In this document: positions 42,247 to 47,000 of the stretch, piece by piece
Numbering within the stretch: the first letter of the stretch is position 1
How the letters are laid out: every line of letters begins with the position of its first letter
DNA from: Melioribacteraceae bacterium
GTDB lineage: Bacteria > Bacteroidota > Ignavibacteria > Ignavibacteriales > Melioribacteraceae
Assembly (NCBI GenBank): GCA_011525875.1
Contig: WYBN01000013.1
Coordinates: forward strand, 62,001 to 126,000
Reading direction: 5' to 3'
Length of the DNA stretch: 64,000 nucleotides
The notes under the pieces: model-generated
Database searches by the model: none
Told to the model about the DNA's origin: nothing
Seen by the model: only the letters and a program-made list of their open reading frames with translations
Position numbers and translations under genes: made by a program

Positions 42247-43773
42247 ATGAATAATAACGGTAAAAATAGTTTTTTGAATAAAGCTCTATCAATGGTAGAG
42301 AAAATAGGGAATGCACTGCCCGATCCTGTATTTTTATTTGCACTTCTTGCGTTCCTGGTTGTACTACTTTCTGGAGTAACAAGTTTATTCGATATCGAAG
42401 TAGTCCATCCCGGCACCGGAGAAATTGTTAAGCCAGTTAACCTTTTTTCTGTTAAAGGACTGCATAAAATTCTCACTGGTATGGTACATAACTTTACATC
42501 CTTTGCTCCTTTGGGAACAGTGCTTGTTGCATTGCTCGGTATAGGTGTGGCAGAAGGGAGCGGATTTATCGGAACAATTTTAAGGCTGCTTGTTCTTTCA
42601 TCCCCCAAAAAACTTCTCACCTTCGTTGTGATCTTTACGGGCATTCTTTCCAATACTGCAAGCGAAGTTGGGTATGTGCTGCTTGTGCCGTTATCTGCAA
42701 TTATCTTTTTATCTGTGGGTCGAAATCCATTAGCAGGAATCGCCGCCTCGTTTGCAGCTGTTTCCGGAGGCTATAGCGCAAATCTTTTACTGGGAACGAT
42801 TGACCCATTATTAGCCGGCTTGTCGGAAGAGGCGGCTCATATAATTGATCCCTCTTATACTGTTAATCCCGCATGCAATTATTATTTTATGTTTGTCTCT
42901 ACATTCATCATTGCGGGAATTGGAACATACGTAACTGAAAAGATTGTTATACCCCGGCTTGGCATATATGACGGAGAAGTCAAATCTGAGACGATACAGA
43001 AATTAACGTATGAAGAAAAAAGAGGTTTGAAATATGCCGGTATAACCGCTTTGTTTTTTACTATAATAATTTTATTGGGAACGGTGCCGTCGTGGGGTTT
43101 TCTGCGCGATGCAGAAACCGGCAGCCTTCTTCGTTCTCCGTTTATGAGCGGTATAGTAGCCATAATTTTTATCGGCGGCGCGGTGCACGGAATAGCTTAC
43201 GGTTTAGGCGCCCGGACAATTAAAAGTGACAAGGATATAGTTGACGGAATGGCAAAAGCAATGAAAACGCTGGGAGCTTATATAGTGCTGACATTCTTCG
43301 CCGCTCAGTTCGTGGCATATTTCAATTGGACAAATTTAGGTTTAATAGTAGCTATAGAAGGCGCAGGTGTGTTAAGAGCTTCCGGGTTAGGGGATATCCC
43401 ACTTATAATAGGATTTGTAATTGTAAGCGCAATGGTAAATATGGTTATGGGAAGCGCGTCGGCAAAATGGGCGATTATGGCTCCGGTGTTCATACCCATG
43501 TTTATGCTTCTTGGCTACAGCCCGGAACTTGTCCAGGCTACTTACCGAGTAGGTGACAGTATTACCAATATAATTTCACCGATGATGTCTTACTTTGCTC
43601 TTGTTGTCGCATTCTTTCAACAGTATGATAAGAAAGCCGGTATTGGAACAATTATAGCGACTATGCTGCCTTATTCCATATTCTTTTTTATCGGATGGAG
43701 TTTGCTTCTAATTGTCTGGATTCTTTTGGGGCTGCCTGTCGGACCTGGCGCAGATTTATTCATCCAATTATAG
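42247..43773 (+). CDS. AbgT family transporter
   Basis: This is a 508-residue membrane protein of the AbgT (p-aminobenzoyl-glutamate transporter) family with many hydrophobic spans. Typical segments are [20 protein letters not shown] near the N-terminus, [32 protein letters not shown], and the C-terminal [20 protein letters not shown] and [18 protein letters not shown]. Characterised members import p-aminobenzoyl-glutamate or export sulfonamides using ion gradients. The substrate here is not determinable. It lies alone between the NlpC gene and a MITE-like element that starts 11 bases after its stop. Confidence 0.92.
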
Positions 43774-43784
43774 ATGCCCTGCGC

Positions 43785-43992
43785 TTAAGAGTCTGTTGCA
43801 CGAGTCATACAATTGCCGTTCACTTTAGTGAACGGGGGAAATAGCAACAAACTAAATGGACTTTAGTCCCATAAAATGGCAAGAATGGCCTAAAGCCCAG
43901 AGATAAGTTGGCAATCTTAATCCCTGACTTTCCCATAGGGATGCCCTTGGCAAAAAGTAGGGGCAAATAAAAGTTTTGCAACAGACTCTTAA
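43785..43992. mobile_element. MITE-like element with 16-bp terminal inverted repeats
   Basis: A 208-bp non-coding block is bounded by TTAAGAGTCTGTTGCA (43785-43800) and its perfect inverse TGCAACAGACTCTTAA (43977-43992). The outermost TTAA at both ends may be a target duplication. Inside are short hairpins that share a TTTA loop: CCGTTCAC-TTTA-GTGAACGG (43816-43835), GGAC-TTTA-GTCC (43858-43869) and, on the other strand, an imperfect one near 43886-43899. A further TCCC-ATA-GGGA stem lies near 43931. No transposase is encoded. The inner TIR (CTGTTGCA) resembles ends of some DDE-type insertion sequences, so it is probably a non-autonomous derivative. Confidence 0.7.
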
Positions 43993-44012
43993 ATAAAGGG
44001 GGAATGATACTA

Positions 44013-47000
44013 TCAAGATTTTACAGTTTCGAAAATAACGGTAAAAGTTGTGCCGTTATTTTTTTTACTGCTGACTTGTATTTCAGCATCGTTTATTTCA
44101 CAGTATTTTTTTACGAGAGCCAACCCAAGTCCGTTTCCTTCAAACGAACGAGTATAACCCTGTTCTTCCTGGCTGAATGGCTCAAACAGATGTTCCTGAA
44201 ATTTTTTGCTCATTCCAATGCCAGAATCTTTAATCTTCACCGATACCTTGTTCTTACCTATATTCTCAAGATAGATCTCTACCGAGCCTTTTATCGTATA
44301 TTTAATAGCATTATCAACAAGGTTAGCAAATATCTGTCCAAGGCTGTATTCATCTCCTTTCACATCAGTGTTTTGCGCTTTATTGGTATAAATTAATTGC
44401 AGACCTTTTGTGCTTGCAGTAAGTTTATATTCCATATATATCTTCAATAGTATATCCGACTCCAGATCTATTTTGCGTAAAATTGGTTTGTAACTTCCAC
44501 TTTGAATTTCGGACATATTCAAAATCAACTCAATGGTTCTGATTATTCTTTCGGAAGCATTGCGCATGCTGTCAAAGCAGCTTTTAATTGTAGGGTCTAT
44601 TGAATCGCCGAGTTCGTCCCGCAAATAATTTGCGTTGCTGGTAACAATGTGAATAGGAGTTCGAATTTCATGAGACATCTGAGCGAGGAATTCGGATTTC
44701 AATTTCTCCGATTGCTCCGCCAGTTCTTTAGCTCTTATAAGTTCTTCTTGAGTTTTCTTCTTATCGGTGATATCCTCTTTAACGGCGACAAAGTGTGTTA
44801 TATCTCCATCGTTATTTACCAGCGGAGAAATCAGCACAGTTTCCCAAAATAATTCTCCGCTTTTTTTCTTATTAAATATCTCGCCGTTCCAATCTCTGCC
44901 GGATAGGATAGTATTCCATAGATTTTCATAGAACTCCCTTCCATGGTAACCGGATGATAAGATTGTAGTTTTCTGCCCGATCAACTCTTCATTACTATAA
45001 CCTGAAACTTCAGTAAATTTTTTATTTACATATTCAATAATGCCTGCTGGGTCTGTAATGATTACCGAAGCGGGACTCTGTTCAATAGCCCGCGATAACT
45101 GCAGTATTTTTTTCTCGGAAATTTTTCTTTCTGTAATATCTCTGAATATACTTAGTATAAGCGGGGAGGATTCAATATTTCCAAGCACTGCGGTTGAGAC
45201 GGCAAACCATTTAATTTCACCGTTCCATAAATTAAATTCTCTTTCGATAAAAGGACTGAAAGAATTTTTATTATAATTATTTATGTATGATTCTAAAACT
45301 CTTTCGTTGTCAGGTTGGCGGTAGAATATATCGAGGGGATTCCCGATAATTTCTTCGGCAGGTTTATTAACAAGCTCACAGAATGCCTGATTAACCTTAA
45401 TAATTTTTCCTTCTCCGTCAGTTAAACGCATGCCGTCATTCGAACTTTCCCACACTGACCGGAATAGACTTTCGGAACGTTTAATAACTTCTTGAGCATT
45501 TTTTCGTTCAGTTATATCTCTTATCAAATTTCTAAATTGAATAATTCTTCCTTCATTATCACGAACCATTCGTGATAACTGTTCAGTCCACACTATACTT
45601 CCATCCTTTTTTAATATTCGTATTTCTATTGTTGTATCAATATCATTCGATTTAGCTTTTTGTGCATAATGATCAATTACACGCCTTCTGTCTTCTTTAG
45701 CAATTAAACGTATATAAGACTTCCCGATAATTTCTTTGATAGAATACCCTGTTTGACTTGCTATGTTTGGACTCACGTAAACGAGTTTTCCATCAGCGTC
45801 TGTTATGTAAAAGACATCGCTGATATTTTCGACCAGATTTCTAAATTTACTTTCACTTTCCTTTAAAGCTCGCTCGGCTTGCTTCCGATCGGTAATATCA
45901 CGCGCAATTGCAATCACTGCTCGTTGTTCAAAATAAATTCCGGGCGCAAGGCTTACTTCCTTCGGGAAAATTGTACCGTCTTTTTTCAATCCCCAAAATT
46001 CAAATCGTTGTATCTCTCCGTTAAGAGCAGCCTCTATTGCGGTTTTCAATGCGCTCAAATCGTTTCTGCCGGGCGCAGATAAGAACTCGGGAGTTTTACC
46101 GATAAAAAATTCCCGGGAATAGCCGTAGGTTTCAACGGCGGTTTTATTTACATCCAGAAAACGTCCGTGTTCGTCCTGTATATAAATTGAATCGCTGACG
46201 CTGTCTATTATTCCTCTGTGTGTTATTTCCGAGATACGAAGTTCTTCTTCAATCTTCTTCCGTTCGGTGATATTATGAAGCATGCAGTGTGTCTGCATGA
46301 AATTGCCTTGATAATCATAGCCAACTCTGCCCTCAACCGAATAGATAATTATTTCGCCGTCTCTATTGATGAACTGAAATTCTAAGCCGCTCGATTTGCC
46401 GGGTTTTATAAATTGAGGAAATCTTTCTCTAAATAACTCTTTGCTTGATTCGCAAAGGAATTTGGAAATATTTTTCCCCAGCACATCTTCCCTTTTATAA
46501 TGCATCTCTTCAAGCCATATATTGTTGACTTCGATTATATTGCCGTCCTTATCAAGTGATTGATATGCTACCGGCGCATTCTCAAAAAGTTTTCGGAAAC
46601 GGTTTTCGCTTTCTTTGATCCTTGTAATATCTGTCTGAAGACCCCAGTTGCCGATAAGTACGCCGTCTCGTAATTCTGCAATCACGCTGTTAAGAAAATA
46701 TTTTTCATTGCCTTCTTTATCGTATTCAAGGGTTTCGATGTTTTCAAGCCGGTAGCCGTTCTTTATAAAAGTCTTTGTCGCTTCAAGATTAGTATCATTA
46801 ATTTCGTTGCCGTATAGTTCAAGCAGGTTCATGCCTATCAGCTCCTTGCTGCTGCTGAACCCGTACATTTTGACGAAGGAATTATTACACTCTTTAATCT
46901 TTCCAGTAGAAATAATCTTCTCAATTTGGATATCGATTGGTTCTGAGATATTAATGGGATTGGAATATTCGACGTAGTAAATACCTTCGCTGCTTTTTTC

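Follow-up and report, generated by a model that had tools for sequence, protein, structure and literature searches.

For some members of the IS1182 family of insertion sequences (NF033551; PF13751 together with PF05598), palindromic targets were reported by Siguier et al., as cited in PMC5678879 and PMC4923244. According to the same two papers, the family members IS1272 and TnSha1 take hairpins of any sequence as targets, often terminators, and neither leaves a target duplication: IS1272 replaces the target stem-loop (Wan et al. 2017, PMC5678879), and TnSha1 partially deletes its hairpins (Furi et al., PMC4923244). Duplication of the loop only is drawn as a possibility in pathway c of Fig. 13 of Wan et al. 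(PMC5678879). Among the bacterial miniature elements (MITEs) listed in PMC3733652 are RUP, NEMIS, ERIC and Nezha, which are 70-300 bp long, non-coding, bounded by inverted ends, robustly folded and mobilized in trans. REP and BIME repeats are short, clustered intergenic palindromes, and REPs are known targets of insertion sequences (PMC2817692, PMC3116915 and PMC3733652).

Here we describe a 200-bp element (positions 43789-43988) within the window, the 64,000-nucleotide stretch of Melioribacteraceae DNA that was analysed. Its ends are identical to those of an IS1182 family member in a related genome (G020), and it shares the palindromic targets of that family, but it lacks a transposase gene, its cargo being hairpins. 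Like IS1272 and TnSha1, elements of this group insert into hairpins; however, the stem is retained as two separated halves with the 4-nt loop copied, as in pathway c, in contrast to the stem-loop replacement of IS1272. With RUP, NEMIS, ERIC and Nezha it has in common its size range, inverted ends, non-coding sequence, robust fold and probable mobilization in trans, but it differs from them in its ends, its parent family, and the use of hairpin-loop targets with loop duplication. Its cargo resembles REP and BIME repeats, whereas the lack of a detected RAYT in its own genome (G000), and the swapping of whole cargo stems between relatives, set it apart from REP/RAYT systems. Taken together, we conclude with considerable confidence that it is a non-autonomous MITE of IS1182 type that carries REP-like cargo and belongs to a group inserting into hairpin loops with duplication of the loop. 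The kind of element is known, but no description of the loop-copying variant or of its hairpin-carrying MITEs was found in the literature covered; for loop-only duplication by IS1182 elements this is a weak negative, drawn from a body of literature with few subscription papers and with ISfinder outside its scope.

An earlier note on this DNA placed a 208-bp element with perfect 16-bp termini, including TTAA, in the gap between convergent AbgT and kinase genes. The setting is as described, with an AbgT-like gene ending at 43773 (+ strand) and a gene for a 1905-aa kinase-like protein ending at 44013 (- strand), names that come from that note and from inspection. An inverted-repeat scan also recovered the perfect 16-nt repeat (43785-43800 and 43977-43992, arms 176 nt apart), but the outer four bases on each side lie outside the element: the constant end portion comprises 12 bp, with a direct 4-bp repeat beyond it, and the element proper is therefore 200 rather than 208 bp. 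The 16-bp repeat combines 12 bp of end with a target duplication that is palindromic by coincidence. TTAA itself does not form the element's end and is no fixed target, being one of several 4-bp duplications; piggyBac-like TTAA targeting was rejected because a single copy has TTAA as its duplication. The internal stems with a common TTTA loop that the note had seen are present as hairpins 1 and 2 (Table 1), and a third, hairpin 3, shows the same loop on the opposite strand as TAAA. Hairpin 4 is perfect in copies 3 and 4 (CCCCGACTTT...AAAGTCGGGG).

Table 1. Features of the window copy and of its insertion point (window positions).
Feature	Position	Strand	Basis or remark
CCCT, left arm of weak palindrome at insertion point	43777-43780	+	pairs with 43997-44000
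Left target duplication, TTAA	43785-43788		direct repeat with 43989-43992; TTCG and TTCA in the other intact copies
Left terminal inverted repeat, GAGTCTGTTGCA	43789-43800	+	inverted-repeat scan, copy comparison, 12-mer search
Hairpin 1, CCGTTCAC-TTTA-GTGAACGG	43816-43835	+	relatives hold other stems in this slot
Hairpin 2, GGAC-TTTA-GTCC	43858-43869	+	alternatively forms one long stem with hairpin 3
Hairpin 3, GGCCTAAAGCCC (copy 3: GGGC-TAAA-GCCC)	43887-43898	+	inverted-repeat scan, copy comparison
Hairpin 4, CCCTGACTTT...AAAGTAGGGG, two mismatches in window copy	43922-43963	+	folding, copy comparison
Tip of hairpin 4 (22 bp), formed by two mini hairpins of 11 bp, TCCCATAGGGA and TGCCCTTGGCA	43931-43952	+	G022 homologue has no such tip
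Right terminal inverted repeat, GAGTCTGTTGCA	43977-43988	-	inverted-repeat scan, copy comparison, 12-mer search
Right target duplication, TTAA	43989-43992		copy comparison
AGGG, right arm of weak palindrome at insertion point	43997-44000	+	flank pairing, folding

Four copies of the element occur in its own genome, the other three, at 91-94% identity, on contigs 9 (two) and 11 (one), which argues against a chance pattern. Multiple copies with the same ends, which the note had looked to, along with empty sites, as proof of mobility, are thus present. The three intact copies have the ends GAGTCTGTTGCA...TGCAACAGACTC and perfect duplications that differ from copy to copy (TTAA, TTCG and TTCA), and the fourth has lost its right end; intact copies with different 4-bp duplications identify the element as a mobile MITE. 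It is short and non-coding (no open reading frame of at least 60 aa lies within it), with perfect terminal inverted repeats, a target duplication and four copies at unrelated sites. A search of plasmid DNA gave no match to it. No orthologous empty site was found for any of the own-genome copies, and for the window copy none was found in the 58-genome set, which holds no other member of the window's genus, or at the AbgT loci of 19 relatives.

The ends are widespread in related genomes. A search of 58 genomes, the element's own included, gave 105 matches to the 12-mer GAGTCTGTTGCA (48 forward and 57 reverse), spread over 25 genomes, against 6 for a reversed control. Exact ends without an inverted partner within 400 bp at up to two mismatches made up 62 of the 105, which counts against the reading given here and may reflect decay, longer elements, contig ends or chance. 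Among genome contigs, the end-pair pattern at 184-214 bp was found at three loci (L106, L107, L108) in two MAGs titled Bacteroidetes bacterium, and L107 and L108 were folded and showed other palindromic cargo; viral contigs gave no end-pair pattern, and no shared site was seen when the flanks of G053 were compared with those of G055 and G057. In G020, a 1558-bp element (G020:C288:4743-6300) carries both exact 12-bp ends around a transposase gene of the IS1182 family (NF033551, 376.7 bits against a cut-off of 270; PF05598 and PF13751), with a reading frame of 529 aa whose start is possibly further in. The left end of copies 2-4 is the same as the right end of this insertion sequence over 17 nt, GAGTCTGTTGCACAAGT, so that beyond the 12-mer both read CAAGT; the window copy differs there. 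G037 and G034 also have IS1182-like genes at a distance of about 120 bp from an exact end, one of them broken and the other cut by a contig end. These shared ends, together with the 17-nt match, point to a parent of IS1182 type and suggest that an enzyme of this type would act on the ends of the MITE. At 1e-20 the G020 protein has matches in 7 of the 58 genomes, and the same search found no IS1182-type transposase in the element's own genome, an assembly 81% complete, which also has no match to PF01609. A parent in the same genome is usual for MITEs and not required, and the failure to find one lowers only the claim of present mobility.

The sites into which these elements have inserted were compared across the set of genomes. 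Among 35 distinct end pairs with readable flanks, chosen regardless of those flanks, the 4-bp duplication was exact in 18 (chance, about 0.14 of 35), matched at three of four bases in 6, and shared two or fewer in the remaining 11. Pairing of the flanks was scored by counting Watson-Crick pairs over the seven bases to the left and right of the duplication, and averaged 4.23 of 7 over all 35 pairs, compared with 1.86 at random places. In a curated set of 41 pairs with at least three of four duplicated bases, reduced to 37 with one partner per end, it averaged 4.27 of 7 when centred on the duplication, and fell to 1.76 and 2.32 when the centre was moved by one base. Dealing the right flanks among the elements gave a pairing of 3.75, with 4.27 reached in 23 of 10,000 deals; the high value of dealt flanks comes from many of the targets being one type of palindromic repeat (GCCTGCC-like, 27 of 37), and the other 10 elements score 3.4 of 7. 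Folding of the joined target halves at 40 sites, of which L256, L183 and L184 were added by hand, gave a mean of -4.9 kcal/mol compared with -1.3 (P 1.4e-15). As a group, the elements target hairpins, and what they duplicate over 4 bp is the hairpin loop.

Individual loci display the same arrangement. In G032, a 170-bp element (L255) lies between CCGTCTGC-TTCA and TTTA-GCTGACGG, and the same genome holds CCGTCTGC-TTTA-GCTGACGG without an element (L259), which is a related empty site for a sister element; with the element taken out, L255 and L259 can be aligned through the junction (131 columns, 81%), so that filled and unfilled hairpins occur side by side in G032. A 191-bp element in G022 (L256) splits ACCGTCGGT-TTCA-ACCGACGG, with TTCA on both sides and one end at GAGTATGTTGCA. 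To the left of the G020 insertion sequence stands CTCCGTCAGT-TGAA (L086), and TGAA-GCTGACGG comes after the right ends at L087 and L088; no single locus shows the two hairpin halves together, since the contig breaks off at the element's right end. Two IS1182 elements with different ends show TGCCGAGGTG-TGGA / TCGA-TACCCCGGCA (L183) and, as a 3-bp case, GCAGGGGT-ACG-ACCCCTGC (L184). In the element's own genome, copy 2 splits GCTCAC-TTCG-GTGAAC and copy 3 splits CCCCGG-C-TTCA-AA-CCGGGG. The target of the window copy is a weaker palindrome than most, CCCT-GCGC-TTAA-ATAA-AGGG, in which a stem of four pairs encloses a 12-nt loop with four unpaired positions on each side of the duplication, and its stability (-1.9 kcal/mol) is matched by 26% of random 32-mers. 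As a separate observation, a hairpin in G020 (CCGTCAGC...GCTGACGG at L088:620-665) contains only the right end TGCAACAGACTC and TGAA, and resembles a trace left behind when the insertion sequence was lost imprecisely.

It could be argued that this is an ordinary MITE without target preference, and that its palindromic flanks reflect tolerated intergenic sites rich in terminators and REPs, as the weak palindrome at the window site and the high value of the dealt-flank control might suggest. However, elements landing at random near hairpins would not place the duplication on the loop, the pairing is centred on the duplication to the base, dropping from 4.27 to 1.8-2.3 on a slide of one base, and the two IS1182 elements with different ends follow the same pattern, all of which makes this alternative unlikely. 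Under the reading that we favor, an IS1182-type transposase, now lost from the genome or encoded in the missing part of the assembly, would have bound the 12-bp ends in trans and excised the element. Its 3' ends would then have been joined to both strands of a palindromic target that had been extruded as a hairpin or cruciform, in each case at the loop's 5' edge, so that repair would have duplicated the loop only, with half a stem left on each side. The REP-like hairpin cassette would ride along as cargo and not as machinery.

The cargo was compared across eleven sequences from G000, G009, G020, G022 and G032. In the copies, two central hairpins, which can also pair with each other, lie between hairpin 1 and hairpin 4. 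Central arms CTTTAGTC...GGCTAAAG, or a near form, occur in 9 of the 11, and the window copy and L088 fold otherwise under the rule of the script. Slot 1 is occupied by the stems CCGTTCAC or CTGTTCAC (G000), CCGTCGGT (G032), CCCGTGGC (G022, G009) or CCGTCCAC (G032, G009), with complementarity maintained across the differing stems, and slot 4 by CCCCGACT or CCGTCGGT; in both slots, whole stems have been swapped between relatives while loop and slot are unchanged. Cassettes with both ends are found in G000 and G022, with one recognizable end in G032 (L005, L017), and without ends in G009 and G032 (L008, L014, L015); in G000 the cassette is seen only within the four copies. The insides of 34 of 38 elements folded more than two standard deviations better than mononucleotide shuffles. 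Palindromes of the cargo are thus repeated in intergenic DNA, also outside the element, in the manner of REP and BIME repeats, and the idea of REP-like units carried in a MITE, put forward in the earlier note, agrees with a multicopy element that has the same ends in each intact copy and with hairpin units that also occur without ends in related genomes.

These cassettes without ends, and RAYT-family matches in 50 of the 58 genomes, might suggest that the hairpin cassette is itself the mobile unit, a REP or BIME moved by a RAYT, a Y1 transposase, with the 12-bp ends as part of the repeat. We consider this quite improbable: the ends enclose very different palindromic cargo in other genera, it is the 12-bp ends and the duplication that define insertions, regardless of cargo, and no match to PF01797 or NF047646 was found in the element's own genome. 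Inverted ends with a 4-bp duplication mark a DDE transposase and not Y1 enzymes, which also speaks against it. The cassette on its own may nevertheless be spread by RAYT. Hairpins flanking RAYT genes (L250-L253) were rejected as a link to the TTTA hairpins, as their loops differ (CCAT, ATGG, CCAC and others). At L011 (G037:C27:1-1595), a weak RAYT-family match below the cut-off (G037:C27:878-1189) is flanked on both sides by hairpins with TTTA, TAAA or TTCA loops (473 and 1442; 718 and 1335), and is a candidate mover of such hairpins.

That the element is a functional two-way transcription terminator, as the earlier note had ventured, or a structured RNA under selection, is highly improbable in spite of its position between convergent genes and its strong fold (about -68 kcal/mol for the whole element; inside, z -5.1 against mononucleotide shuffles), for a consensus scan of both strands gave no terminator-like site in the element, an Rfam scan of the window returned only tmRNA and tRNAs and nothing at the element, copies occur at other places, and the gene order around it was seen at none of the AbgT loci of 19 relatives (own locus left out), where the kinase gene converged on AbgT in 0 of 19 and a weak kinase match lay on the other side of AbgT in 2.

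If loop-copying is borne out, transposases of IS1182 type would be integrases guided by structure that, unlike IS1272, yield a clean product with the whole target preserved. They would offer a natural probe for hairpin or cruciform DNA in living cells, a matter of long debate, and would account for the nesting of REP-like hairpins and MITEs in these genomes. A broader picture, which we hold tentatively and as possible rather than probable, is that hairpin tips are a common landing platform in this order, where IS1182-type elements would read shape and not sequence and copy only the loop, while their ends would wrap palindromic cassettes that vary between genera and whose hairpins are landing sites in turn, or carry 22-bp twin-hairpin tips, with intergenic regions growing by nesting. 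The G020 insertion sequence sits in a cassette-type hairpin.

Several further observations were made on the repeats and on the window. The same IS1182-type ends hold cargo that differs by genus (CCCTCTCTT-type, GTCATTCTGA-type and TTTA-hairpin type), with differing cargo at L071 and L255 (G032), L256 (G022), L095 (G001), L171 (G034) and L107. Twin mini-hairpin tips of 22-24 bp (TCCCATAGGGA plus TGCCCTTGGCA, and variants with other stems) lie in the loops of larger hairpins at window positions 43931-43952 and at L008, L088, L257 and L267, and once, at L013 (G029), apparently in coding DNA; such tips could represent another mobile unit, a very small one, with a preference for hairpin tips as well. 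Five near-identical multi-hairpin units in G034 (L203, L204, L207, L208, L209) contain the hairpins GGACTTTAGTCC, GGGCTAAAGCCC and CCCCGACTT, and no IS1182-type ends were seen at these five loci; from L190-L229, only the rows displaying a hairpin were used. A second AbgT-like gene in the same genome (G000:C11:287226-288731) has 51% identity to the one beside the element, and a tmRNA gene, truncated by the window start, occupies positions 1-254.
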